Shown here one piece after another: positions 3,436 to 23,292 of a stretch of DNA of 23,292 nt. A program made the translations under genes and the position numbers. Below the pieces are notes generated by a model. It had not been told where the DNA came from. It saw only the letters and a list, made by a program, of their open reading frames with translations, and searched no databases. Source of the stretch: a virus; IMG/VR virus record IMGVR_UViG_3300030106_007369, positions 3,765 to 27,056 of that record. One strand, 5' to 3'. Each line of letters starts with the position of its first letter. The first letter of the stretch is position 1.

Positions 3436-4190
3436 ATCAAGAAGAGAAAGTTCTCAGAGAAAATATAAGACAAATTATCAGACATGTCAAGTCCAAGAAA
3501 AAACTTAACGAAGAAAATAAACTTCGTATGATTATTCAAAAAATGATGGACTTTGACTTGTTCGAAGGTCAAACACCGGATGTTGATCCGGCGCCCAATA
3601 AATCGACTGGAATTAACGTTCTAGAAGAACTCCTTAAAAAGATTATACCAATTCTGGAAACAGATTACAAGTCTCTAACAACAAATTCTGATCAAAGACA
3701 GTCTTATAGAGCACATGTTATTAATGCAGTTGATAATTCACTCACGCCTGCAAAATTAAACAACCAAGCTGCCGACAGCGAGGGTGATTTGGAAGAAGAA
3801 ATTGAAATTAACGTTGGCAATGAGTCTCCTGATGATAAATTTATTGATATTCGAACTGATGCAGAAAAAAATGCCGAAGAAGAAGAGGTTGATCCAAGAG
3901 ATTCGTTTGGTTCTGGTGTCGATGGTGATGAAACAGGTCGCAATGTAGCTTATCAATCTTATAAGAAAATTGAAAGTAGTATAATCGACTCTTACGAACT
4001 TTTGGCAAACCCAGAAGATCAAGAATTGTTCTATGATTACTTAATTGCTAACTTGAAGCTTTATTTTGAAAAGTTTGAAGAAGAGCTTGCAAGTCAAGTT
4101 GAAGAACCAACAAATCAAGCATATGATATGGCTAAACAAGGTCAAGAGCCTACACAAACTTCTAACGATGATATAGAATTGGATCTCTAA
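3432..4190 (+). CDS. Acidic hypothetical protein, possibly structural
   Basis: 252 aa, strongly acidic. It starts with a basic helical N-terminus (NIRQIIRHVKSKKK), has a long Asp/Glu-rich centre (about 115-165), and ends with a helical region followed by a Gln/Thr-rich tail. ATG 3432 overlaps the preceding stop by 4 nt (ATGA), with AGAGGA upstream, so it is probably translationally coupled to the KxDG-HxGH protein. No catalytic motif is visible. Together with the acidic protein at 84-1007 it gives this block a scaffold or virion-assembly flavour, which is inference only. Confidence 0.75.
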   Translation: MNQEEKVLRENIRQIIRHVKSKKKLNEENKLRMIIQKMMDFDLFEGQTPDVDPAPNKSTGINVLEELLKKIIPILETDYKSLTTNSDQRQSYRAHVINAVDNSLTPAKLNNQAADSEGDLEEEIEINVGNESPDDKFIDIRTDAEKNAEEEEVDPRDSFGSGVDGDETGRNVAYQSYKKIESSIIDSYELLANPEDQELFYDYLIANLKLYFEKFEEELASQVEEPTNQAYDMAKQGQEPTQTSNDDIELDL

Positions 4191-5482: not shown

Positions 5483-5691
5483 TGTGGAAAGTATACAAAG
5501 AGCAAAATGGATATATACAAGGTGAGTTAGTCAGCAAACACTCGTCAGAGTCTGCTGCATTGAAAGCTGCTACAAAAAGTATAAAATTTTCATTTTCCGA
5601 AAAGCAAAAAAGAGAAAAAGAAATAAGAATTTGGCTGGATGATGTGAATCATTCTCCAATTGGTGTTATAATAAAAAAGAAAAGGGGATGA
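5482..5691 (+). CDS. Small hypothetical protein ending inside tmRNA 5' end
   Basis: 69 aa, basic at the C-terminus (IIKKKRG). It begins MWKVYKEQNG, with a short strand-like N-terminal half and a helical segment SSESAALKAATKS. ATG 5482 overlaps the preceding stop by 1 nt, so it is probably coupled to the lipoprotein gene. Its last codons carry the tmRNA promoter, and its stop codon lies within the tmRNA 5' acceptor strand. No family is recognised. Confidence 0.65.
   Translation: MWKVYKEQNGYIQGELVSKHSSESAALKAATKSIKFSFSEKQKREKEIRIWLDDVNHSPIGVIIKKKRG
5664..5672 (+). promoter_or_regulatory. Extended -10 promoter for the tmRNA
   Basis: TGTTATAAT (5664-5672) matches the extended -10 consensus TGnTATAAT exactly and lies 11 nt before the predicted mature tmRNA 5' end at 5684. 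A -35 hexamer is not convincing. It is embedded in the final codons of the upstream gene. Confidence 0.6.
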
Positions 5692-6017
5692 ATAGGCTTC
5701 GACAGGGTAAGGAAAAGGAATAGTGCAAGTAGGTTAGATACGACCTTAACAGTTCAAAACAATTAGTTGCAAATAACAACAACCATTTCGAACAGCGCTT
5801 AGCCGCTTAGTAGGGAGGCTGATTAGAGCCTTCTTTCCAATCTAATCAAAACAACAGACAAGTTGTAAAAATCAAACCATCTAATGCAACAGGGCAATAA
5901 GCGTTAGATTATAATTGCCTACCCTATCAGTTAGGGGATACAAAAAACTGATAAGCTTGTGAATGACTACAATTGGAATTATTTTGGACGCGGGTTCGAC
6001 TCCCGCCATCTCCACCA
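5684..6017 (+). ncRNA. ssrA: tmRNA (transfer-messenger RNA), one-piece
   Basis: The 5' end GGGGATG pairs over 7 bp (one G-T) with CATCTCC near the 3' end, followed by discriminator A and an encoded CCA (6015-6017). The T-arm (GCGGG, TTCGACT, CCCGC) is standard, and the 5' segment has the usual GGCTTCGACAGG. The tag frame begins at GCA (5769) and reads ANNNNHFEQRLAA, ending with two stop codons in tandem (5808-5813). A Leu-Ala-Ala end is the ClpXP/ClpAP-type degron seen in most bacterial tags. The following segment to about 5950 should form the downstream pseudoknots. The molecule (334 nt) is not permuted. It would rescue stalled ribosomes and tag nascent proteins for proteolysis during infection. 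Confidence 0.95.
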
Positions 6018-7006: not shown

Positions 7007-7798
7007 ATGAACAATCTTGTTCTGTTTGACGTTGACGGTACTTTAACCGAGGCTCGGGAGCCAATCTCTGTTAAGATGCTTAAAGCGCTCAGAGAGCTTT
7101 GTAAGTACACAGAAATAGGCTTTCTTACCGGTTCCGGCCTCGAATATATCAAAGAACAGCTTTGGCCAGCACTTAATGATCCAATAATAAAAAGAAACTG
7201 TCACCTTCTCCCTTGTAATGGTACAGAATATCTCATAACTTCGGGTGAACAAGAAATAATATTTAACGAAATATCTAAGTCTGTTATGAGAGAAGAGATT
7301 GGCCCTGAAAATATAAATTGCTTGTTAAAATTATTGTGTTCATTACAAAATGAAATAATTTTTGACTACGAACTCCCACTAGCAGGAAACTTTATTCAAA
7401 ACCGAGGCTCAATGATCAATTGGTGCCCCATAGGCCGCAGCGCCGATCGGCTACAACGTGGTATATTTAAAGATATGGACAGCGAACAGTATATCCGCAG
7501 TAAGTATATGGATAAATTGATTGCTTCTTTAAAAGAGGCTGGAGTTGACGTTACGGTAAAGCTTGGTGGTGATACATCATTTGATATTTATCCTAATGGC
7601 TGGGACAAGACATATGCTCTCAAACATTTTGAAGGAGATGATTGGATTTTTTGGTTTGTAGGGGACCGTTGTTACCCGCAAGGTAATGATTATGAAATTT
7701 TTTCTTTGTTAAAAGATACAGGTCGAGCTTTTGAGACAGGAGATCCGGAAGAGACAATAGAGATAATAGATTTTCACATATTAAGAGATGTTATATAA
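7007..7798 (+). CDS. Eukaryotic-type (PMM2-like) phosphomannomutase
   Basis: 263 aa of the HAD superfamily, close to the length of human PMM1/PMM2 (about 246-262). The nucleophile motif is FDVDGTLT (Asp8, Asp10). The cap region contains NRGSMINWCPIGRS, matching the PMM2 substrate-binding stretch (RNGMLNVSPIGRS). It is followed by GGDTSFDIYPNGWDK and by GDRCYPQGNDYEIF, the counterpart of GDKTMPGGNDHEIF. These motifs define the alpha-phosphomannomutase family, which converts mannose-6-phosphate to mannose-1-phosphate. Most bacteria use an unrelated phosphohexomutase (ManB) instead. The product would feed GDP-mannose-type sugars for the glycosyltransferases downstream. TTTAGGAG precedes ATG 7007. 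The family match is strong; activity is inferred. Confidence 0.88.
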   Translation: MNNLVLFDVDGTLTEAREPISVKMLKALRELCKYTEIGFLTGSGLEYIKEQLWPALNDPIIKRNCHLLPCNGTEYLITSGEQEIIFNEISKSVMREEIGPENINCLLKLLCSLQNEIIFDYELPLAGNFIQNRGSMINWCPIGRSADRLQRGIFKDMDSEQYIRSKYMDKLIASLKEAGVDVTVKLGGDTSFDIYPNGWDKTYALKHFEGDDWIFWFVGDRCYPQGNDYEIFSLLKDTGRAFETGDPEETIEIIDFHILRDVI

Positions 7799-7812
7799 AG
7801 GAGTTACAAAAT

Positions 7813-8292
7813 ATGAGCGATGAAAAAAGAAAAACAATTATGGTTTCTGGCGGCTTTGATCCAGTACATGTAGGACATATTAGGATGATTCGTGCAGCCG
7901 CTGAATATGGAGATGTGATAGTGGTGGCTAATTCTGACAATTGGCTCCATCGCAAAAAAGGCTTTGTGTTTATGGAGTTCAATAAGCGCTCAGAAATTTT
8001 GAGTGCTATTAAAGGTGTTATCTTGGTAGACTCAGTGGACGATACTGATGGGACTGTTTGTGAGGCAATTAGGAGACATAAACCTGACTTTTTTGCTAAT
8101 GGTGGGGACCGCGGAAAATCGAACACCCCCGAACAAGATGTGTGTGAAGAACTGGGTGTTGAGTTATTATGGGGTATTGGTGGTGATTACAAAGCAGACG
8201 CGTCATCCACACTTGTTAATCGATTCAGAAAAAATACAGAAAACGAAGACGAACCCCCTATACGAGCGCAAATTAAACACTCAGGAAGATAA
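7813..8292 (+). CDS. HxGH cytidylyl/adenylyltransferase (HldE-C/TagD-like)
   Basis: 159 aa, the usual size for a single cytidylyltransferase-like domain. GGFDPVHVGHIRMI contains HVGH (His19-His22), the nucleotide-binding signature. Later, KPDFFANGGDRGKSN matches the KPDVLVKGGD region of the second domain of HldE (ADP-heptose synthesis) and of glycerol-3-phosphate cytidylyltransferases. The usual ISSTxxR signature appears here as SSTLVNRFR near the end. It probably activates a sugar phosphate or polyol phosphate with CTP or ATP. It shares a transcript with PMM (AAGGAG, 14-nt gap), which favours a sugar role. The substrate is unknown. Confidence 0.8.
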   Translation: MSDEKRKTIMVSGGFDPVHVGHIRMIRAAAEYGDVIVVANSDNWLHRKKGFVFMEFNKRSEILSAIKGVILVDSVDDTDGTVCEAIRRHKPDFFANGGDRGKSNTPEQDVCEELGVELLWGIGGDYKADASSTLVNRFRKNTENEDEPPIRAQIKHSGR

Positions 8293-9826: not shown

Positions 9827-9903
9827 TGGGGTGAAGCGCCACAGGCAGGTGCACCGGGTTGTTACCCCGGCCGTTGTTGGTTCGAGTCCAACCGCCCCAG
9901 CCA
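9827..9903 (+). tRNA. tRNA-Asn (GTT) with encoded CCA
   Basis: A full cloverleaf is readable. The acceptor is TGGGGTG paired with CGCCCCA (one T-G), then discriminator G and encoded CCA. The D-stem is GCGC/GTGC, the anticodon stem CCGGG/CCCGG around the loop TTGTTAC (anticodon GTT), and the T-arm GTTGG/CCAAC with loop TTCGAGT. AAC codons are decoded. It is the only ordinary tRNA visible here. Confidence 0.95.
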
Positions 9904-13471: not shown

Positions 13472-14755
13472 ATGAAAAAGAAAACTATTTTGGTCTTATC
13501 AGATCATCCGCTTTCACCTTCGGGCGTTGGCACACAAACTAGATATATGATTGAAGCTCTCCTTAAAACCGGCCGATACCGGTTTATTTGTTTGGGCGGT
13601 GCAATGAAGCATCAAGATTACAATCCTGTAAGAGTTGAACCATGGGGGGATGATTGGACAATTTTTCCCGTTGATGGCTACGGCAACCATGAGATTATAC
13701 GCTCTATTCTACAGAAGGAACGTCCAGATTTACTTTGGTTTATGACTGACCCTCGATTCTATGAGTGGTTGTGGGAAATTGAAAACGAAGTTCGAGCAAA
13801 TATCCCAATGGTTTATTATCACGTATGGGATAACTTTCCTGCTCCAAAATTCAATGCACGATGGTATCGTTCATGTGACTTTGTGGCGTGTATCTCAAAA
13901 GTTACCCACGCATGTGTAAAAGAAGTGGCTCCTAATGTAGATTCCTGTTATTTGCCACATGCTGTAAATCCAACTGTATTTAAGCCAATAACATCTTCCG
14001 AAGATAGAGCCGCCGCAAAGGAAGTGAAAGACCAAATATTAAATTCTAGTGTCAATTACAATAACCCAAACAAGAAGATATTTTTCTGGAACAGTCGAAA
14101 TGCTAGACGTAAGTTGAGCGGCTCTTTAATATGGTGGTTTAAAGAGTTTTTGGATGAAGTTGGTCACGATAAGGCAACTCTTCTTATGCATACAGATGCA
14201 AGGGATCCGCATGGTCAAGATTTACCACACCTTATTGAAACACTGGGGTGCACGGACGGCCAAATTTTAATATCCAGCAACAAAATACCACCAGAGGCAT
14301 TATCAAGGATGTATCAGGCTGCTGATTACACAATTGGTATCAGCGATGCAGAGGGTTTTGGTTTATCGACACTCGAATCATTATCTTGTGGTACACCAAT
14401 CATTGTAAACATGACTGGTGGCTTGCAAGAACAAGTTACAGACGGAAAGAATTGGTTTGGCTGGGGTATTCAGCCGGCTTCAAAAGCTGTAATTGGTTCC
14501 CTTCAAGTTCCCTATATCTATGAAGATAGAATTTCGAAAGAAGATTTTATTAAAACTTTGAAAAAGGCACTAAACTTATCAGCACCAAAATATAAAAAGC
14601 TGAGCGAGTTGGCACTTAATCATGTACATACGAATTATAATTTTGAAAATTATGAAAAATCATGGATTGATTTAATAGATGAAACAATCAAAAAACATGG
14701 TTCATGGGAAAATAGAATAAACCACAAACGCTGGTATTTAATGGAGGTAGCGTGA
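13472..14755 (+). CDS. GT4-family glycosyltransferase
   Basis: 427 aa, GT-B fold. The N-terminal donor-independent half begins KKTILVLSDHPLSPSGVG, the glycine-rich opening of GT4 enzymes. The C-terminal half has EGFGLSTLE (Glu294-x7-Glu302), the retaining-GT4 signature, followed by SCGTPIIV. It would transfer an activated sugar to an acceptor in the cytoplasm. The insert PHAVNPTVFKP is typical of the domain boundary. It follows the Cas4-like gene by 7 nt and is coupled by a 4-nt overlap to the next GT. Donor and acceptor are unknown. Confidence 0.9.
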   Translation: MKKKTILVLSDHPLSPSGVGTQTRYMIEALLKTGRYRFICLGGAMKHQDYNPVRVEPWGDDWTIFPVDGYGNHEIIRSILQKERPDLLWFMTDPRFYEWLWEIENEVRANIPMVYYHVWDNFPAPKFNARWYRSCDFVACISKVTHACVKEVAPNVDSCYLPHAVNPTVFKPITSSEDRAAAKEVKDQILNSSVNYNNPNKKIFFWNSRNARRKLSGSLIWWFKEFLDEVGHDKATLLMHTDARDPHGQDLPHLIETLGCTDGQILISSNKIPPEALSRMYQAADYTIGISDAEGFGLSTLESLSCGTPIIVNMTGGLQEQVTDGKNWFGWGIQPASKAVIGSLQVPYIYEDRISKEDFIKTLKKALNLSAPKYKKLSELALNHVHTNYNFENYEKSWIDLIDETIKKHGSWENRINHKRWYLMEVA

Positions 14756-16026
14756 GAAAGAAAACTGTTTTATTGAGAGGCCCCGTATTGACCCGTTCGG
14801 GTTATGGTGAGCAAGCTCGGTTTGCACTAAGATCATTACGTAGCAGGGAAGATCTTTTTGATATTTATATCCACCCGCTGCAATGGGGCCAGACCGGCTG
14901 GCTTAGTGAAACAAACAGCGAAAGACTTTGGATTGATCAGAAGATTGAAAAGACTATTAGCTACATCCAAAATGGTGGAACGTTTGATATCTCTGTACAA
15001 GTTACCATTCCAAACGAATGGGAAAGCATGGCTCTCACCAACATAGGATACACAGCAGGAATTGAGACTACAAAAGTTGCACCAGACTGGATTCAAAAAG
15101 CAAATGAGATGACAAAGGTTATTTTGGTTTCAAATCACTCCAAAAATGTTTTTGAAAACACAAAGTATGATGGTTACATAGAAAACGTTAATCCTACGAC
15201 ACAAGAAGTGGAACGAACCCCGACACAACTTGAAACAACTGTTGAAATGCATGCAGTAAACTATCCAGTGAAGATATATGAAGATTTAGAGCCACTCAAG
15301 ATGGATTTAGCAACACCATACAACTTTGCATGTGTTGCACAATTTGGGCCAAGAAAGAATCTTGTTAATACAATTAAATGGTTTATCGAAGAGTTTCATG
15401 AGGATGCAGACGTTGGCCTTGTGGTAAAGACAAATGTAGCAAAAAACTGCCTTGTTGATCGCGAAGCTTGCGAGGGTCGCCTTCGTGGAATCATCTCGGA
15501 GTTTCCTGATAAGAAGTGCAAAGTTTATTTGATGCACGGCGATATGACCGATAAGGAAATGCATGCTCTTTACGTAAACGAGAAAATTACAGCAGCTCTT
15601 TCTCTCACCCACGGTGAGGGTTTTGGTTTGCCTCTATTTGAGGCGGCATACACAGGCGTACCAGTAGTGGCTACTGCTTGGTCTGGACAACTCGATTTTC
15701 TTTGTGACGAAGAGGGAAAAGAAAATTTCTATGCAGTATCCTTTGACTTAAACCCAGTATCGGAAGAAGCTGTGTGGGATGGAGTCATCTTGAAAGATTC
15801 TATGTGGGCCTTCCCACGTCCACAATCAGCCAAGTCTAAGATGAGAGAGTGTATTGATGACGCTAAATCTGGTAAGACTGAGAAGTACTGCCAAATTGCC
15901 TCACATCTCATGGAAAGATTTAGTGAAGAAAAGATGTACAAGCAGTTTGTTGATGCGATGGATGTTGAAGATGGATTTGATGTTGAGTCTTGGTTGGATG
16001 ATTTGCAAATTGAAGAAGTTGAATGA
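14752..16026 (+). CDS. GT4-family glycosyltransferase
   Basis: 424 aa from GTG 14752, which overlaps the preceding stop (GTGA) and follows ATGGAGGT. The N-terminus LRGPVLTRSGYGEQAR is a typical GT4 start. HGEGFGLPLFEA contains Glu289-x7-Glu297, then TGVPVVATAWSG. CVAQFGPRKN is the usual donor-binding stretch. It is distinct from, but parallel to, the GT before it, so a stepwise oligosaccharide is suggested. The C-terminus is acidic. Confidence 0.9.
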   Translation: MRKKTVLLRGPVLTRSGYGEQARFALRSLRSREDLFDIYIHPLQWGQTGWLSETNSERLWIDQKIEKTISYIQNGGTFDISVQVTIPNEWESMALTNIGYTAGIETTKVAPDWIQKANEMTKVILVSNHSKNVFENTKYDGYIENVNPTTQEVERTPTQLETTVEMHAVNYPVKIYEDLEPLKMDLATPYNFACVAQFGPRKNLVNTIKWFIEEFHEDADVGLVVKTNVAKNCLVDREACEGRLRGIISEFPDKKCKVYLMHGDMTDKEMHALYVNEKITAALSLTHGEGFGLPLFEAAYTGVPVVATAWSGQLDFLCDEEGKENFYAVSFDLNPVSEEAVWDGVILKDSMWAFPRPQSAKSKMRECIDDAKSGKTEKYCQIASHLMERFSEEKMYKQFVDAMDVEDGFDVESWLDDLQIEEVE

Positions 16027-16859
16027 GCATCGTATTTGTAGCAGATTTTTTTGCTGAGCAGGTTCTTGGTGGTGGTGAGTTGAATAACGAAGAACTCATC
16101 AACATATTAATTTCCCGCGGCCATGAAGTTACAAAGATAAACAGCCATGTTTTAACACCTCAAATGGTGGAGGAAAATAGGGACAAAAAGTTTATCATAG
16201 CAAACTTTATTAATATTCCCGCAAATGTTATTCCTCGTTTCTACAATAAGCAATATATTATTTATGAGCACGATCACAAGTATTTAACAACAAGAAATCC
16301 GGGTGTCTTCCCGGATTTTATCGCTCCAAAAGAACATGTGATTAATTTAGAGTTTTATCAAAATGCCAATGCTGTACTCTGCCAGTCATCGTTTCATGCA
16401 GACATTGCTCAAAAAAACACTGAGTTGGATAACATTGTAAGCCTAGGAGGAAACATATGGGATATGGATTCTTTAAAATTTATGAGTGAGCAGGCGAAGA
16501 TAGAAAAGCAACCAACATATGCTATTATGAATTCTCAAATTAAACACAAGAATACAGTTGGTGCTATCAGGTTTTGTAACGCAAAAGGTTATGATTACAA
16601 GCTGATAGAAAGTCGAAATTATAAGGAGTTCTTGTCAATGATGGGTATAAATAAATCGTTGGTATTCTTACCAGAGACACCTGAGACTCTTTCAAGAGTG
16701 ATTGTGGAAGCCCGTATGATGAATATGGGTGTTGTTACCAATAAGCTCGTAGGGGCTGCCAGCGAGCCATGGTACTCGCTTAAAGGTCATGATTTGATCA
16801 AAGTGTTTCATGACAAAAGAGATGAAATAACTGATATTGTTTTGGAGAATTTATCATGA
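16023..16859 (+). CDS. Short GT4-like glycosyltransferase
   Basis: 278 aa, somewhat short for GT4. It opens VFVADFFAEQVLGGGELNN, where the glycine cluster suits a GT-B nucleotide site. FLPETPETLSRVIVEA contains an Glu221-x7-Glu229 signature near residue 229. TRNPGVFPDFIAPKEHV is conserved-looking. The ATGA overlap ties it to the preceding gene. The match is to the general fold; family is less certain than for the two before it. Confidence 0.75.
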   Translation: MSIVFVADFFAEQVLGGGELNNEELINILISRGHEVTKINSHVLTPQMVEENRDKKFIIANFINIPANVIPRFYNKQYIIYEHDHKYLTTRNPGVFPDFIAPKEHVINLEFYQNANAVLCQSSFHADIAQKNTELDNIVSLGGNIWDMDSLKFMSEQAKIEKQPTYAIMNSQIKHKNTVGAIRFCNAKGYDYKLIESRNYKEFLSMMGINKSLVFLPETPETLSRVIVEARMMNMGVVTNKLVGAASEPWYSLKGHDLIKVFHDKRDEITDIVLENLS

Positions 16860-17800
16860 AGGTATATTGCGTACAATATTCTGGACATGCCGGTAGATGG
16901 ATCTATGATGGAATCGGAGCAGCGTGGGACAAACTTGGGTATGAAATTTATCGTGGCGATAGCAATGAACCCGAAACAACAACGTTTATGTTTTTTCCCT
17001 CGGATTCTGACACACTTAGTGAAGATTACCACATCATGTGTACGGCAGATATGATAAACTGTGATCTAGCTTTGACAGCAGTGCAAAATGCAAAAAAAGC
17101 ATTTTTGTTTGTTCAGCCAACACAGTTTCCAGATCCATGGGGACAACACCCCAATTTTAGAAATATACTTGATACCAAATGGATCACTGAGTTAAATAAA
17201 CTGGACAATGTTGTATACTGGACATTTGCTGATGTTACTGAAGAGTATTATCATCTCTGGGAAAAGCCAATTCACACTATTCCATTGGCTTTTGATAACT
17301 TAAATTACAAGCCAAATATTAATAGCAAATTTCAACAGTTTGATATATCATTTGTCGGTGGCTGGGCAAATAATGGTTTCGATGAAAAGAGAAAAATCAT
17401 CATTGAAATTTTTAGTAAATTTAAAGATTCTGGTTTAAACTGTGGGTTTTTTGTAAACAAAAATTTAACCCATCAGCAAGAATGTGATCTTTTAGCAAAC
17501 AGCAAGTTGACATTAAATATTCACGATGCATATCAACGAACGCTTGGACTTGATACAAACGAAAGAACGTTTAAATCACTAGGCCTTAACGGCGGCTTGG
17601 TGTCCGATACAGTGGGCCAGTTAGGGCGCCTGTTTCCTAATATCAAGACAAGCTTGGATGCAAATGAAATAGTTAAAGTGACGCGAGATTTACTAGCACT
17701 ACCTGCAAAAGAATTGCAAGATATTAAAAATAAGAACAAGCATGACGTCTTGACTAATCATTGTTATACTAATAGAATAGAAGAGTTATTGAAGATATGA
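16856..17800 (+). CDS. CgeB-like glycosyltransferase
   Basis: 314 aa. The C-terminal region has LNIHDAYQRTLG and NERTFKSLGLNGGLVSD, which match the Glyco_trans_1_2 (CgeB-type) domain where NxRxFEALACGGxLLxD is typical. The N-terminus (VQYSGHAGRWIYDGIGAAW) fits a GT-B first domain. It ends with a helix (HDVLTNHCYTNRIEELLKI). The ATGA overlap couples it to its neighbours. Sugar and acceptor are unknown. It is a useful intact reference for the broken homologue at 19626. Confidence 0.8.
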   Translation: MKVYCVQYSGHAGRWIYDGIGAAWDKLGYEIYRGDSNEPETTTFMFFPSDSDTLSEDYHIMCTADMINCDLALTAVQNAKKAFLFVQPTQFPDPWGQHPNFRNILDTKWITELNKLDNVVYWTFADVTEEYYHLWEKPIHTIPLAFDNLNYKPNINSKFQQFDISFVGGWANNGFDEKRKIIIEIFSKFKDSGLNCGFFVNKNLTHQQECDLLANSKLTLNIHDAYQRTLGLDTNERTFKSLGLNGGLVSDTVGQLGRLFPNIKTSLDANEIVKVTRDLLALPAKELQDIKNKNKHDVLTNHCYTNRIEELLKI

Positions 17801-18543
17801 TTCCAAAAGTTACAATTATAATTCCATGTTATAATTCGGAAAAGTTTGTCGCTGAGTGTGTACTATCCGCAGTCACACAATCTTATGAAAATGTAGAGAT
17901 AATTGCAGTAGATAATGAAAGCACTGATAACACCATGTTGCTTTTAAGAGCAATGGAAGAGCATCATGATAATCTAATTGTTTCAACTGCAAAAAATATA
18001 TACCCCAACTGTTGGGATGAGGCTCGCGAAGAGGGTTACAATTTAATGACTGGAGATTATGTTACAGTTATAGGATCCGATGATTTGATTGAGCGCGATT
18101 ACATCAAAAATTGTATGGAGATCATACAAAAATCAAAAGGCACAATTAAAGCTTTTCAAAGTATTGCTATGGGATTCAGAGATCACCCGCAAGGAAAAGT
18201 GCGTACAGGCCTAATAGAATATAGATATGAAAACAGAGAACAGTTTATGAAGCAAAGCTTGGAAAGGTGCGTAGTTAACTCTCCGTCTGTTTTTTATGAT
18301 GCATCGCTATACGAAATGGGTCTTTTGAAAACTTTTCCGGAGAAATTCGGAGGAGCAGCAGATTATGACCTATATTGTCGCTTAGTGGATAGTGGTGTAT
18401 TTATATATTCTGTTCCTTCATGGATAGGGTTTTGTTATAGGTGGCACGAGGATCAGGCAACTTGGAAAGTCCACAAAGAAGGAGCCAACTACGATAAGAT
18501 GATTCAAGACTTTTGGAAGGAAAAATGGAAAAACGAGATTTAG
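17797..18543 (+). CDS. GT2-family glycosyltransferase
   Basis: 248 aa, GT-A fold. It opens VTIIIPCYNSEKFVAECVLSA followed by AVDNESTDNT, the standard GT2 start. VIGSDDLI (Ser94-Asp96) is the metal-binding DxD-type position, and the later AADYDLYCRL resembles the catalytic ED region. It inverts the anomeric configuration. It follows the CgeB-like gene by an ATGA overlap. No membrane segments, so it acts on a cytoplasmic acceptor. Confidence 0.9.
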   Translation: MIPKVTIIIPCYNSEKFVAECVLSAVTQSYENVEIIAVDNESTDNTMLLLRAMEEHHDNLIVSTAKNIYPNCWDEAREEGYNLMTGDYVTVIGSDDLIERDYIKNCMEIIQKSKGTIKAFQSIAMGFRDHPQGKVRTGLIEYRYENREQFMKQSLERCVVNSPSVFYDASLYEMGLLKTFPEKFGGAADYDLYCRLVDSGVFIYSVPSWIGFCYRWHEDQATWKVHKEGANYDKMIQDFWKEKWKNEI

Positions 18544-19163
18544 TAGAAAGAATTTTAGATATTGCATACGATAATAATCTGTCCCACTTGGGCAGTTATT
18601 TTTCTAGTGTTGGAATTATTGATGATATTTTTCATAATAAAGAAGAAAATGATATATTCATACTTTCTGCTGGGCACTGTGCTCTTGCTTTGTACGTTGT
18701 ATTAGAGAAATATTTAGGACATGACGCCGGCCGATTGTTTGACAAGCATGGCGGCCACCCTCACCGCTGTGAAGAAGATGATTTATATTGTTCCACAGGC
18801 AGTCTGGGCATGGGTATCACAGTAGCGGTAGGTCGAGCACTCGCTAATCCTGACCGCACCGTACATTGCCTAATAAGCGATGGAGAGTGTGCCGAGGGCA
18901 GTATCTGGGAATCACTTAAGTTTATTTACGAAAACAATGTCAAAAATATCAAGATATATGTTAATGTTAACGGATACGCTGCATATGACTCAGTTGATAC
19001 CAGATATCTAGTTGAAAGATTGAAAGTCTTTCTGCCTGATATTAATATTGTTTACACTGATGTTGGAACATTTCCGTTTCTCAGGGGTTTAAATGCCCAC
19101 TACCATGTGATGAATGACAAAGATTACAAACTGGCCAAGAGGATTTTAGACAATGAGACGTGA
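18525..19163 (+). CDS. Transketolase-like N-terminal (TPP-binding) subunit
   Basis: 212 aa from ATG 18525 (AAGGA just upstream); it overlaps the GT2 gene by 19 nt. LSHLGSYFSSVGIIDDIF and ILSAGHCALALYVVLEKY match the start of transketolase subunit 1. GGHPHRCEEDDLYCSTGSLGMGI follows in the usual order. The TPP/Mg motif reads SDGE (Asp119) followed about 28 residues later by NVNG (Asn149). The usual first Gly of GDG is Ser. It is shorter than ordinary N-terminal transketolase subunits (about 270 aa). It should pair with the next gene to carry thiamine diphosphate and move a two-carbon ketol group. Its place in a glycan operon suggests sugar branching or chain building rather than pentose-phosphate metabolism. 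Confidence 0.85.
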   Translation: MEKRDLVERILDIAYDNNLSHLGSYFSSVGIIDDIFHNKEENDIFILSAGHCALALYVVLEKYLGHDAGRLFDKHGGHPHRCEEDDLYCSTGSLGMGITVAVGRALANPDRTVHCLISDGECAEGSIWESLKFIYENNVKNIKIYVNVNGYAAYDSVDTRYLVERLKVFLPDINIVYTDVGTFPFLRGLNAHYHVMNDKDYKLAKRILDNET

Positions 19164-19629
19164 TTTTGCAGACAGATTGCATCTAGAAATGGGTAAAAAC
19201 AAAGACATCGTAGTCTTAACGGGTGACCTAGGTTACGGCCTGTGGGATCGTATTAGAATAGACTATCAGGACCGGTTCTTCAATGTTGGTTCTTCCGAGC
19301 AACTTATGATGGGTATGGCATCAGGATTTGCCATGGAAGGCAAGATACCGGTAGTATATTCCATAACACCATTTTTGCTTTATCGACCATTTGAATTTGT
19401 ACGTAATTATGTAAATCATGAAAAATTACCCGTAAAATTGATAGGCGGTGGAAGAGATCGTGACTATGGATATTTGGGTTTTTCACATTGGGCCGAAGAA
19501 GACAAACAAATAATGAAAAATTTTAAAAACATTAAAATGGTTCATCCTTCTAATGTCGATGTAATGAACGACAATTTCAAGTATGTGATTGATAAGAAAA
19601 CTCCACTTTACATGAATTTAAAACGATGA
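19153..19629 (+). CDS. Transketolase-like pyrimidine-binding subunit
   Basis: 158 aa, overlapping the preceding gene by 11 nt. LTGDLGYGLWDR and RFFNVGSSEQLMMGMASG contain the catalytic Glu49 of the TPP-pyrimidine domain (GIAEQ-like). VYSITPFLLYRPFEFVRN is typical of the following helices. It stops after this domain: the C-terminal domain of full transketolases (about 130-150 further residues) is absent. That is a feature of some short, split transketolase-like pairs in polysaccharide loci. The active site would form at the interface with the preceding subunit. Confidence 0.85.
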   Translation: MRRDFADRLHLEMGKNKDIVVLTGDLGYGLWDRIRIDYQDRFFNVGSSEQLMMGMASGFAMEGKIPVVYSITPFLLYRPFEFVRNYVNHEKLPVKLIGGGRDRDYGYLGFSHWAEEDKQIMKNFKNIKMVHPSNVDVMNDNFKYVIDKKTPLYMNLKR

Positions 19630-20520
19630 AGATATTGCTAGTAGCAAATAAAACATATCGGGGAACTCCTGATAGTATTTGGTGGTACTTTTGGGAACCA
19701 CTTATAAAGCTTGGCCACGAGGTTTATTTTTATGATACAGTGAGTGGCGATGAAGAAGGGCCTTTTGCTGAGATAGTAACGAGATTTCAGCCAGATTTGA
19801 TTTTTTGTATTTTGACAGGAAACAAAAATATAACCCCAAAAGAACCATGGGATGAATTACTCGAGATAACTCAAAAAGGTATAACAAAGACATTCAATTG
19901 GTATTGTGATGATACATGGCGTTTTGACAACTTTTCATCAATATCTTGTGGCTACTTTCATGTTTGTTCAACACCCGAAAGGTCGTATATGGACCGATAT
20001 AGACAGATAGGTTATAACAACATCATACTTGGCAACTGGCATGCTAATCACGAATACTACCCTGTTGTACCTTTCAAAGAAAAAACCATAGAGGCTTCGT
20101 TTATTGGTGCACCAAATGCGAGTCGGAAAAGCTTTTTTGATCTTGCAGAAGTTGACATAGAATATTTCTACGGCTTAACGCAGCAGGAGTTATTTAATAC
20201 CTTCTCTAATAGCAAAATAAGTGTAAACCTTTCTGTCAATAACAATGATCCCGATAAGAAAACTCAAATGAAACAAAGGATATTTGAAATCCCCGCCGGA
20301 GCAGGCCTTTTGGTAACCGAATATCATGAGGGAATAGAAGAATATTATGATATTGATAAAGTTTTCTACGATTCAAGAGTTTAAAGAAAAAATGAATTTT
20401 TTCAAGAGTAGACCAAAAATTGTTGAAAAAATTGCCATGGCCGGCCACAAAAGATTTTTAAAACAAAACACCTCCGAGAAAAGATTAGCCGGAGTGGTCG
20501 AGGAGATTATGAAAAAATGA
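19626..20520 (+). pseudogene. CgeB-like glycosyltransferase interrupted by a +1 frameshift
   Basis: The first frame (19626-20384) gives 252 aa: VANKTYRGTPDSIWWYFWEP, then CSTPERSY, FIGAPNASRKSFFD, and QRIFEIPAGAGLLVTEY, the CgeB-type domain near the end. It stops at TAA 20382-20384 right after DKVFYDSRV, where family members continue with a helical tail. The +1 frame continues without a break from 20380 and reads FKEKMNFFKSRP, KIAMAGHKRFLKQNTSEKRL and VVEEIMKK to TGA 20518-20520. It looks like the missing C-terminus, and this stop overlaps the next start as ATGA, like the other junctions here. A one-base change, a sequencing error or programmed frameshifting at GTT TAA A would all fit. The two pieces together make about 298 aa, near the intact paralogue's 314. 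Confidence 0.75.
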
Positions 20521-21368
20521 ATGTCCTAATAACTGGCGCCAATGGATTTTTAGCAAAAGAGCTAAATGATTATTTTACAAGCAGTGAGAAAGAATACAAA
20601 GTTATTCTAACAACTCGCAACAACATGAATGTGACAAACTACGATGATGTAAAAAGAATGTTTGACAACAACAATATCGATGTTGTGGTACACACAGCCG
20701 TCCAAGGTGGCAAAAGGGGCCATTATGAAAACATTGATGATTTCATGAATAATATTATGATGTTTCAAAATCTCATTAAATTTAATGATAAGTTTAAATT
20801 TATGTTTAATTTTGGTTCAGGCGCAGAGTTTGATAGAAGGTTTAATATAAATCAAAAAATAGAAATAGATATATGGAATCAAAATCCGATTGACCTCTAT
20901 GGTCTAGCAAAAAACTTAATTACTCGCAAGATTTATGAGATGGACTCAAATGTTTTTAATCTTAGATTATTTGGTTGTTTTGGCACGCATGAGGAACCTC
21001 AAAGACTTTTTAGAACTTGTTATGATAATTTTACAAAGGGAATTAGTGCAATTATCACACAAGATAGATATATGGACTATTTTTACGCACAAGATGTTGG
21101 TCGCGTGATAGAGGACATAATTGAGAATTATGATGAATACGATATACCAAGAGATATAAATCTCTCGTATAAAGAAAAATATAAGCTCAGTGAGTATGCG
21201 CATATGATTAAAGACTTGACAAAAAACACTGAGAATGTTATCATAGAAAGCGATACTATTGCCAACGCATACACCGGTGATAGTTTTTTGATTGAAGATT
21301 TACAGATTAATTTAATAGGCTTACATGGAGGAATGGAAGAATGTCTGAAAAGTTGGAGCAAATTCTAG
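20517..21368 (+). CDS. Extended SDR (NAD-dependent epimerase/reductase family)
   Basis: 283 aa, Rossmann-fold. ITGANGFLA (residues 5-13) is the cofactor loop, with Ala replacing the last Gly. NFGSGAEF (Ser101) and YGLAK (Tyr128, Lys132) form the catalytic triad. RLFGCFG follows, as in GDP-fucose-synthase-like and dTDP-rhamnose-reductase-like enzymes. It probably reduces or epimerises a nucleotide 4-ketosugar, the likely product of the dehydratase at the window end. The gene starts within the frameshifted tail's stop and overlaps the next gene by 28 nt. The exact product sugar is unknown. Confidence 0.8.
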   Translation: MNVLITGANGFLAKELNDYFTSSEKEYKVILTTRNNMNVTNYDDVKRMFDNNNIDVVVHTAVQGGKRGHYENIDDFMNNIMMFQNLIKFNDKFKFMFNFGSGAEFDRRFNINQKIEIDIWNQNPIDLYGLAKNLITRKIYEMDSNVFNLRLFGCFGTHEEPQRLFRTCYDNFTKGISAIITQDRYMDYFYAQDVGRVIEDIIENYDEYDIPRDINLSYKEKYKLSEYAHMIKDLTKNTENVIIESDTIANAYTGDSFLIEDLQINLIGLHGGMEECLKSWSKF

Positions 21369-22672
21369 ACTTGGTATCAGAGTATATCAACGAGAAGGAT
21401 GCTGATTGGAATAGAGACGAGGATTGGGTAGCATACTCAGGTCCACATTTTAGTGATAAAGAATATCGAGCAGCTATTGAGGTATTGCTTGATGGTTGGT
21501 TAATTTTTGGAAAGAATGCGAGAGATTTTGAAAAAACATTCCCACAACATTTAGGAATGCGTCATGGCTCTCTTACAAATTCTGGTAGCTCTGCGAATCT
21601 ATTGGCAGTCACTGCCTTAAAGGCAAAGAGCGGGTTTGGATTGCCGTCTGGCTCTAAGATCATCACACCTGTAGTTTGTTTCCCAACAACAGTCAACCCA
21701 ATCATCCAGAATGGTTTTGTTCCTGTTTTTGTGGACGTAACATTGCCAGATATCAATTTAGACCTAGACGAGGTTGAGAGGGTGCTGGAAGAGGATCCGG
21801 AGATCCGTGGCATAATGTTCGCCCACGTTCTTGGTAACCCTCCCGATATGGATCGGTTGATGGCATTAGTAGAAAAGCATGATTTGATCTTTGTTGAAGA
21901 TGCGTGTGATGCCCTTGGATCTTTTTATGACGGTAGAAAGTTGGGCTCATTCGGTCACATTTCAACTTGTTCATTTTTCCCAGCACACCACATGACAATG
22001 GGCGAGGGGGGATTTGTTGCGACCAACAAAGCAAAACTTCGTAAAGCAGTTGCCAGTATCAGAGATTGGGGCCGCGCTTGTTACTGCAACACTATTAAGC
22101 CCGGTAATGTCACAAGCGGCACGGCGTGTGGCAACAGACACTCAAATTGGCTCACAGGCATGCCAAATGCAATTTATGATCATCGATATGTCTTTGATGA
22201 AATCGGATATAATTTAAAGCCTCTTGATTTACAAGCAGCAATGGGCCTGCAACAATTAGAAAAATTGCCAGACCTTGACGCCGCCCGTCGTAAAAACTTT
22301 AAGAGAATGACTGAAATCTTTGAGCCATATGCCGAATATTTACATCTTCCAAAAGCAACAGACAAAGCTGATCCTTGCTGGTTTGCATATTTGATGACTG
22401 TTAAGGATGACGCACCGTTTAAACGTCATCAACTCGTTGCACATCTCGAGAGCAATCGCATTCAGACGCGCTCTTACTTTGCCGGCAACATCCTTGCACA
22501 CCCCGGATATCAAGAATTGGCCGCCGAGTATGGAGATATTAGAGAAACGTTTCCGATTGCTTCGTATGTTACGCTGAACTCGTTCTTCTTGGGAACATTC
22601 ATCGGCCTAACAGACGAAAAGCTTGACTATATTCAACAAGTTGTCGACAAATTTTTTGAGGATATTAAATGA
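21341..22672 (+). CDS. rfbH: RfbH/E1-type [2Fe-2S], PLP-dependent 3-dehydratase
   Basis: 443 aa, in the DegT/DnrJ/EryC1 fold. SGPHFSDKEYRAAIEVLLDG and GWLIFGKNARDFE are hallmarks of the RfbH/E1 branch. In SFFPAHHMTMGEGG the PLP lysine of aminotransferases is replaced by His216, the change that makes a dehydratase rather than an aminotransferase. Cys189, Cys247, Cys249 and Cys263 fit the iron-sulfur ligands: the first two intervals (57 and 1 intervening residues) match known E1, but the last is 13 residues rather than 7. It would remove the 3-hydroxyl of a nucleotide 4-keto-6-deoxyhexose with an E3-type reductase, giving 3,6-dideoxysugars. The nucleotide (CDP or dTDP) is not shown by sequence. 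GGAGGAATGGAAGA precedes ATG 21341. Confidence 0.9.
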   Translation: MSEKLEQILDLVSEYINEKDADWNRDEDWVAYSGPHFSDKEYRAAIEVLLDGWLIFGKNARDFEKTFPQHLGMRHGSLTNSGSSANLLAVTALKAKSGFGLPSGSKIITPVVCFPTTVNPIIQNGFVPVFVDVTLPDINLDLDEVERVLEEDPEIRGIMFAHVLGNPPDMDRLMALVEKHDLIFVEDACDALGSFYDGRKLGSFGHISTCSFFPAHHMTMGEGGFVATNKAKLRKAVASIRDWGRACYCNTIKPGNVTSGTACGNRHSNWLTGMPNAIYDHRYVFDEIGYNLKPLDLQAAMGLQQLEKLPDLDAARRKNFKRMTEIFEPYAEYLHLPKATDKADPCWFAYLMTVKDDAPFKRHQLVAHLESNRIQTRSYFAGNILAHPGYQELAAEYGDIRETFPIASYVTLNSFFLGTFIGLTDEKLDYIQQVVDKFFEDIK

Positions 22673-23292
22673 AATTAGTATATGTGACTGGCTGTTTTGG
22701 TTTTATTGGCTCTTACGTTACAAGAAAATGTCTCGAACGTGGATGGAAAGTGTATGGTATCGACAAGGAAACTTATGTTGCCAACACTTCACTATATCAA
22801 GAATTTATGGCCCACGACAATTTTGAATATTTAAACGTAGACATCAAGGACTTAGGCCATTTGTATGACTGCGATTACGTGATAAATACCGCAGCCGAGT
22901 CACATGTAGGCAACAGCATTATCAGTAGCAAAGAGTTTATAGACAGCAATATTGTTGGTGTTCAAAACTTGCTTGACCTTGTAAGAAACAAGCCGATCAA
23001 TTGTAATCGACGACCAATATTCTTCCATTTCAGCACTGATGAGGTTTACGGAGACATTGTTGATGGCGAACATACTGAAACAGATTTGCTACACCCTAGT
23101 AACCCGTATTCAGCCGCCAAAGCCGCTGCTGATATGCTTGTGTTGGCTTGGGCTAGAACGTACGATTTGGAATATATAATTTTGCGCCCAACCAATAACT
23201 ATGGAATTGGACAATATCCAGAGAAACTGATTCCAGTTACTGTAAAGCTTTTGAACAGAGGTAAGAAGATCAAACTTCATGATAAAGGCGAG
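22669..23292 (+). CDS. RmlB-like nucleotide-sugar 4,6-dehydratase (partial, 3' end cut)
   Basis: 208 aa are present; the gene runs off the window. VTGCFGFIGS (Gly8, Gly11, Gly14) binds NAD. FSTDEVYGD contains Thr123, Asp124 and Glu125, the Asp-Glu pair of dTDP-glucose 4,6-dehydratases (CDP-glucose enzymes usually have Asp-Lys). YSAAKAAAD gives Tyr147 and Lys151, and LRPTNNYGIGQYPEKLIP is the standard RmlB block. It would produce the 4-keto-6-deoxysugar used by the RfbH-like enzyme. The ATGA overlap with the previous gene suggests coupling. Nucleotide preference is a weak inference. Confidence 0.88.
   Translation, partial: MKLVYVTGCFGFIGSYVTRKCLERGWKVYGIDKETYVANTSLYQEFMAHDNFEYLNVDIKDLGHLYDCDYVINTAAESHVGNSIISSKEFIDSNIVGVQNLLDLVRNKPINCNRRPIFFHFSTDEVYGDIVDGEHTETDLLHPSNPYSAAKAAADMLVLAWARTYDLEYIILRPTNNYGIGQYPEKLIPVTVKLLNRGKKIKLHDKGE

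Follow-up and report, generated by a model that had tools for sequence, protein, structure and literature searches.

The stretch of DNA considered here (the window, 23,292 nucleotides, positions 3,765 to 27,056 of the IMG/VR virus record IMGVR_UViG_3300030106_007369) comes from a 31,392-base contig of a marine virus of bacteria. Toward its end lies a pair of short genes for a transketolase-type enzyme dependent on thiamine diphosphate (ThDP), here called TKN and TKC and together the TK pair. They are accompanied by genes for an extended short-chain dehydrogenase/reductase (SDR), SDR1, for an RfbH/E1-type 3-dehydratase acting on nucleoside diphosphate (NDP) sugars, and for an RmlB-like 4,6-dehydratase (Table 1). 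An earlier note on this DNA had placed a ThDP-dependent pair together with a 3-dehydratase, an SDR and an RmlB-like gene at 18525-22672; the open reading frames lie at these positions, and coordinates, profile matches and predicted folds all confirm the assignment.

Table 1. Genes of the putative sugar operon in the window (position 1 is the first letter of the window; aa, amino acids).
Feature	Position	Strand	Profile evidence
TKN, short transketolase-type PP subunit, 212 aa from ATG 18525	18525..19163	+	Transketolase_N 26.1 bits, cut-off 22
TKC, short pyrimidine-domain subunit, 158 aa	19153..19629	+	Transket_pyr 56.1 bits, cut-off 27
Glycosyltransferase-like gene (Glyco_trans_1_2), between TKC and SDR1	19626..20384	+	Pfam PF13524
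SDR1, extended SDR, RmlD/epimerase type	20517..21368	+	Epimerase 72 bits
RfbH/E1-type NDP-4-keto-6-deoxyhexose 3-dehydratase	21341..22672	+	NF011936 465 bits, equivalog cut-off 423
RmlB-like 4,6-dehydratase, 5' part, running past the window to a gap of N	22669..23292	+	TIGR01181 191 bits
GT2 glycosyltransferase immediately upstream of TKN	17797..18543	+	Glycos_transf_2 74 bits
Four glycosyltransferase or glycosyltransferase-like genes in one run	13472-14755, 14752-16026, 16023-16859, 16856-17800	+	Glycos_transf_1, Glyco_trans_1_2

Both subunits of the TK pair are closest, by sequence and by predicted fold, to the halves of the split transketolase of Carboxydothermus hydrogenoformans. The AlphaFold model of TKN (mean predicted local distance difference test score, pLDDT, 90) finds its best fold in the PDB in the split transketolase 6yak, with a template-modelling (TM) score of 0.84, and that of TKC (mean pLDDT 86) in 6yaj (TM score 0.83-0.86), which is also the best PDB match of TKC by sequence (E 5e-25). 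The ThDP/Mg motif SDGE...N of TKN and its His21, His51, His78 and His192 are invariant among 11 phage homologues, and the catalytic Glu49 of TKC is invariant in all 156 homologues. Other hallmarks of transketolase (EC 2.2.1.1) are missing, namely the full set of three domains, the signature and the phosphate-binding His. TKC has the Transket_pyr domain only, with no match to PF02780 (Transketolase_C), and thus lacks the third domain; the signature reads YLGFSH in the window, as against EDGASH in the Carboxydothermus protein, whose C-terminal chain of 341 aa retains both the signature Asp and the His. Of the 156 TKC homologues, 124 have Leu108 where the signature Asp would stand, and 153 have Gly100 in place of the phosphate-binding His upstream of the signature. 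The signature pattern G-x-[DN]-G-x-[ST]-H occurs in none of the 156. Among distinct viral TKC proteins, the signature Asp is kept in none of 63 with RfbH in the examined stretch versus 5 of 25 without it; the corresponding residue in locus L005 (loci and contigs of the survey are designated by L and a number) is Phe. In established transketolase biochemistry the lost residues (D477 and H469 of the yeast enzyme) recognize the alpha-hydroxyl group and the phosphate group of aldose phosphates. Their loss fits a different acceptor, one that carries no phosphate and is other than an alpha-hydroxyaldehyde. Judged by its sequence, TKN/TKC is a short split transketolase-type ThDP enzyme with intact catalytic residues, and ketol transfer is its predicted activity.

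The genes that may supply its acceptor stand alongside. RfbH is closest in the PDB to CDP-4-keto-6-deoxyglucose-3-dehydrase (E1) 3bcx (340 bits, E 1.8e-100) and passes the curated equivalog test for its family. A His replaces the pyridoxal phosphate Lys (AHHMT), and this His and the four Cys (189, 247, 249 and 263) for a [2Fe-2S] cluster are invariant across 15 homologues; the loop C249-C263 is about six residues longer than in solved E1. The RmlB-like protein keeps the active-site TDE and YxxxK motifs, and a full-length copy in L004 scores 290 bits against the dTDP-glucose 4,6-dehydratase model TIGR01181 (cut-off 365) and 75 bits against the CDP-glucose 4,6-dehydratase model. SDR1 follows the ThDP enzyme directly or almost directly, whichever of the three classes described below is present, and is by analogy a candidate reductase of the branch ketone, in a role like that of YerF. 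Neither a sugar nucleotidyltransferase (PF00483) nor a flippase (PF01943) was found in 18 related viral records (76-194 kb), on which grounds phage-made NDP-glucose and a phage-encoded O-unit flippase were rejected; NDP-glucose is therefore probably made by the host, and export of the sugar, if any, would be the host's.

The TK pair is present in hundreds of viral contigs, mostly with RmlB, SDR1 and RfbH beside it in varying order. Scanning with the TKC alignment gave 268 confirmed viral loci, of which 80 were kept, and 25 in 84,980 cellular genomes; this viral to cellular ratio is indicative only, the scan consisting of two short patterns taken mostly from phage sequences. In 78 of the 79 nonredundant TK loci, which are mostly viral and include cellular ones, TKN precedes TKC, adjacent to it or with one gene between. 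Co-occurrence of the gene set in other genomes, which the earlier note had raised as a point to check, was borne out in these loci: within five genes of the TK pair lie members of the RmlB cluster in 65, SDR1 in 54 and members of the DegT/RfbH cluster in 42. At least two gene orders, TKN-TKC-SDR1-RfbH-RmlB and RfbH-RmlB-TKN-TKC-SDR1, occur across groups of the TK pair; a constant set in shuffled order argues for function rather than for recent common descent alone. In cellular assemblies, RfbH is found in the examined stretch of 4 of 37 TK loci (L021-L023, with phage-like gene order, and L037). One TK call, in L322, was lost, probably from the picking of open reading frames. A conserved set of unrelated partners, which would have tied the enzyme to central metabolism, did not emerge: the conserved partners are RmlB, SDR1 and RfbH, not pentose-phosphate genes, and a few distant relatives have heptose genes. 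With sugar-nucleotide genes as its partners and the transketolase signature residues gone, a central-metabolism transketolase is ruled out for the window clade.

A second survey was seeded from RfbH, not from the TK pair, and drew on one IMG/VR collection, from which loci were chosen by RfbH similarity. In these loci the slot between a GT2 glycosyltransferase gene and SDR1-RfbH-RmlB is filled by one of three classes of ThDP enzyme: the TK pair; two paired proteins of about 202 and 178 aa with matches to the E1_dh and pyruvate dehydrogenase (PDH) E1 alpha/beta models; or a YerE/JanthE-like enzyme of 573-595 aa from the acetolactate-synthase superfamily. JanthE (8rph) was the best solved structure for all four YerE-like proteins compared with the PDB (350-482 bits, versus 243-271 bits for the best acetolactate synthase structure). 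In window-type phages a similar GT2 gene forms the left border of the slot in all three versions. When 0-3 genes are permitted between the ThDP enzyme and SDR1, the order ThDP-SDR1-RfbH-RmlB is found with the TK pair in 16 loci, with a YerE-like enzyme in 10 and with a PDH-E1-type pair in 4, and the order RmlB-ThDP-SDR1 in 4, 4 and 3 loci, respectively. The slot holds a YerE-like enzyme in L213, the TK pair in L216 and a PDH-E1-type pair in L215 and L218, all with RfbH proteins about 85-91% identical; it holds a YerE-like enzyme in L207 and the TK pair in L208, with 94% identical RfbH, and a YerE-like enzyme in L126. Because sister phages hold a PDH-E1-type or YerE-like enzyme in the same slot, the branch would be a swappable trait. 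This exchange among three ThDP classes is the strongest evidence for a branched-sugar pathway, and it supports the proposal of the earlier note that a transketolase-type enzyme could stand in for YerE. In L213 and other YerE-like loci the YerE-like gene has such neighbours: a PanB-like gene is beside it in 13 loci, and an HpcH/HpaI-aldolase-like gene lies at most three genes away in about nine; the products of these neighbours may make alpha-keto-acid donors for the YerE-like enzymes.

The 106 nonredundant loci of the RfbH scan comprise 39 with a YerE-like enzyme, 33 with the TK pair, 12 with a PDH-E1-type pair, 2 with both a PDH-E1-type pair and a YerE-like enzyme, and 20 with none, many of which are truncated contigs. 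Two or more classes would be expected in about 19 loci under random assortment, and none of 20,000 draws was as low as the 2 observed. When only untruncated loci are counted, with at least 5.5 kb of sequence on both sides (n=76), 69 have a ThDP enzyme (67 of one class, 2 of two classes) and 7 have none. A quickly built RfbH tree with 85 rows requires at least 29 changes of class (minimum 2; shuffled mean 35.6, with 2 of 200 shuffles as low), and the starred branches alone force 13 changes for the TK pair and 15 for YerE-like enzymes; of 31 RfbH pairs at 85-95% identity, 10 agree in class (chance 0.39). Since the ThDP class is nearly uncoupled from both the RfbH tree and pair identity, its exchange is almost free. 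As a control, 20 viral loci centred on a cyanophage 4,6-dehydratase were scanned, with a divergent query and with 8 of the stretches shorter than 9 kb; none had an enzyme of the three classes. A further control scan, seeded with the contig's second DegT gene, yielded 2 loci only. The association of the gene set is far beyond chance, and chance co-occurrence in sugar-rich phage regions was rejected on the former control, with its divergent query and partly short stretches.

The three classes are exactly those that a review recognizes as branching keto-sugars, namely YerE-like decarboxylases (yersiniose, erwiniose), alphaKADH2 pairs (aldgamycin, kosinostatin, paulomycin and others) and, as a proposal only, split transketolases (PMC12247030), and for this reason the phage slot points to branched sugars. 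The acceptor of YerE and ErwE is CDP-4-keto-3,6-dideoxyglucose, the product of RfbH and E3 (PMC12247030), and the donors of ErwE are 4-hydroxy-2-oxo acids, which the aldolase-like and PanB-like neighbours of several phage YerE-like genes might likewise produce. JanthE, a YerE-like enzyme, forms tertiary alcohols from alpha-keto acids and ketones (PMC12188165), and Plm8/Plm9 of the paulomycin pathway add a two-carbon chain at C4 of deoxysugars (PMC4802897).

Among known systems, the yersiniose A pathway of the Yersinia pseudotuberculosis O-antigen (RfbF/G/H, E3, YerE, YerF) likewise clusters a 4,6-dehydratase, RfbH/E1, a ThDP enzyme and an SDR, and sister phages carry a ThDP enzyme of the YerE/JanthE class. 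The window operon contains RfbH, a putative ThDP transferase and an SDR; it differs in having a split transketolase type in place of a YerE-class enzyme, a dehydratase of dTDP type by profile, a phage as carrier, no recognized E3 and, in the 18 related viral records, no nucleotidyltransferase. The two-gene transketolases of the miharamycin and amipurimycin clusters of Streptomyces are also proposed to carry a hydroxyacetyl group to a keto-sugar (PMC12247030), but they belong to antibiotic clusters, with proof of the acceptor pending, whereas the phage pair, at about 212 and 158 aa, is smaller, has no third domain and is associated with RfbH and RmlB. The Carboxydothermus enzyme, in spite of being the best match of both subunits, differs in the length and signature residues of its C-terminal chain. 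The PDH-E1-type pairs of sister phages resemble alphaKADH2 enzymes such as Plm8/Plm9 in their E1_dh and PDH-E1 alpha/beta matches, but are short and RfbH-linked, whereas the bacterial ones lie in actinomycete antibiotic clusters. The 'transketolase central region-containing protein' of cyanophages (S-SM2 SSM2_198, P-TIM68 gp190) is likewise a ThDP enzyme in a phage sugar cluster, but is a single-chain fusion of E1_dh and Transket_pyr, among heptose genes and without RfbH. These genes, L334 8926-10134 in S-SM2 (402 aa) and L335 8977-10122 in P-TIM68 (381 aa), both from cultured cyanophages, encode E1-alpha-type and Transket_pyr domains and lie near genes for phosphoheptose isomerase and HldE-like proteins.

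The locus probably encodes, with a probability of about 0.72, a yersiniose-like pathway for a branched deoxysugar in which the branching enzyme is swappable and is a ketol transferase in the window. Synthesis would start from host NDP-glucose, dTDP being likelier than CDP as the nucleotide, which the RmlB-like enzyme would convert into a 4-keto-6-deoxy sugar. RfbH, with pyridoxamine phosphate, its Fe-S cluster and a host reductase, would then form the 3,6-dideoxy-4-keto sugar. The TKN/TKC heterodimer would take a two-carbon ketol unit from hydroxypyruvate or a ketose phosphate and attach it at the C4 ketone. The resulting tertiary alcohol would bear a hydroxyacetyl branch, the ketone of which SDR1 would reduce, as YerF does for yersiniose. 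Finally, the adjoining glycosyltransferases may put the sugar on a target on the virion, the DNA or the host surface. A wider proposal, for which we consider the odds to be even, is that of a one-slot cassette, in which TK-type ketol, PDH-E1-type acetyl and YerE-type acyl transferases, the last with their own keto-acid-making aldolase or PanB, are rapidly exchanged on a constant RmlB-RfbH-SDR backbone and thereby alter the virus-made sugar; with the TK version, a natural transketolase would for the first time be shown to act on a ketone acceptor.

Several observations weigh against this pathway. Relatives of the TK pair without RfbH exist, L017 and L019 having RmlB alone, and the cultured Synechococcus cyanophages S-B43 and RN05-S have RfbH without a ThDP neighbour. 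No E3-type reductase was recognized in the operon; the RmlB-like protein falls under the equivalog cut-off and is nearest to dTDP-type enzymes, although known RfbH uses CDP sugars. Split transketolases are without in vitro demonstration on ketones anywhere (PMC12247030). The counts of the second survey, having been made on loci chosen by RfbH similarity in one collection, are not population frequencies. One locus, L005 8001-10898 (L048 contig), is alone among those surveyed in having a YerE-like gene together with the TK pair in its slot, and could be a recombination intermediate. Some relatives of the pair and the fused cyanophage enzymes also lie amid heptose genes, which bears on another explanation: the pair might make sedoheptulose-7-phosphate or a similar compound for a heptose nucleotide pathway, its proximity to RfbH being incidental. 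GmhA/HddA/HddC-like genes lie upstream of the pair in L018 and split HldE-like genes downstream of it in L016 and L029 (in L018 and L016 the names were read from the sequence, with no profile scan); the bacterial loci L320 and L325 have HldE-like genes, L325 also a GmhA-like one; the TKC proteins of L017 and L018 keep the signature Asp; and in S-SM2 and P-TIM68 the fused E1-type gene is close to phosphoheptose isomerase. In the operon of the window and its close relatives, however, there is neither GmhA nor a heptose kinase, the Asp is absent from every RfbH-linked phage TKC, and replacement of the pair by YerE-like or PDH-E1-type enzymes would be left unexplained. Heptose supply fits some distant relatives and the cyanophage fusions, not the window clade, and for the locus as a whole it is improbable.

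A branched-sugar role might also be correct with a different acceptor, either what the RmlB-like enzyme makes, prior to the RfbH step, or a sugar of nonulosonate type; RfbH would then serve a parallel branch. The TK loci L062, L064, L074, L078, L094 and L095 have RmlB and SDR1 and no RfbH nearby, RmlB and the TK pair are frequently direct neighbours, and NeuB/NeuA-like genes lie downstream in L208. This arrangement nevertheless seems unlikely, as in most RfbH loci SDR1, RfbH or RmlB lies at most one or two genes from the ThDP enzyme, and YerE and ErwE are known to accept precisely what RfbH and E3 make. The near independence of class from the RfbH tree, together with further genes gained or lost near the slot, would equally be expected of a recombination hot spot, whose three ThDP classes had a general role in carbohydrate metabolism and no reaction in common. 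That account is very improbable, for the position is filled in most loci, nearly always singly, by the three classes that branch keto-sugars, these are absent from the control loci, and SDR1 follows all three.

Elsewhere in the operon, five glycosyltransferase-type genes (13472-18543) precede TKN, with short overlaps like those of a single operon; the start of TKC also overlaps the end of TKN. The order of the four upstream genes is kept in the related contigs L004-L009, and the product of 16023-16859 has no Pfam match. The glycosyltransferase gene after TKC is frameshifted near 20353-20360, as its 300-aa homologue in L004 matches two frames by tblastn, the last 54 residues lying in the other frame, to about 20514; the frameshift is a sequencing error or decay. 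Just past the window end, an assembly gap of 10 N (contig 27057-27066, L003:12057-12066) splits the RmlB-like gene, and because the flanking pieces overlap by about 12 codons when compared with the L004 homologue, the break is probably an assembly artefact. Beyond the operon, the contig has a GT29-like gene, PhyH, a CTP_transf_3 nucleotidyltransferase, a second DegT and another SDR. The GT29-like and CTP_transf_3 genes lie at L003 12409-14800 on the window's contig, and NeuB and CTP_transf_3 genes lie downstream at L208 12228-13786 in a relative of the window phage, which suggests that window-type phages also make CMP-activated nonulosonate-type sugars. Outside the operon, the window has a tmRNA gene at 5684-6017 (tag ANNNNHFEQRLAA), a tRNA-Asn at 9827-9903 and, at 7007-8292, a PMM-like HAD gene followed by that for a small RfaE-domain-II-like nucleotidyltransferase.

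The earlier note knew of no described phage pathway of this type, and literature searches on phage branched sugars with thiamine enzymes and on phage lipopolysaccharide (LPS) transketolases gave no description of such a system; the exact TK arrangement was found in no isolated phage in the searched records. What would be new here is that phages carry a pathway of the yersiniose kind, of predicted chemistry, in which the ThDP enzyme that forms the branch can be exchanged. The formation of tertiary alcohols on keto-sugars by transketolases was called pending in a 2025 review (PMC12247030), and the hundreds of compact phage TK pairs, many beside genes predicted to make the acceptor, are small proteins with a defined candidate substrate. 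A 2010 study found the 'transketolase' genes of cyanophage LPS clusters indistinguishable from stuffer DNA (PMC3037559); the pathway proposed here would give such long-annotated genes a testable function. The exchange in the slot amounts to a natural experiment, in which the carbon-branching enzyme is the main difference between operons that are otherwise almost the same, and it points to selection for diversity of the virus-made sugar.

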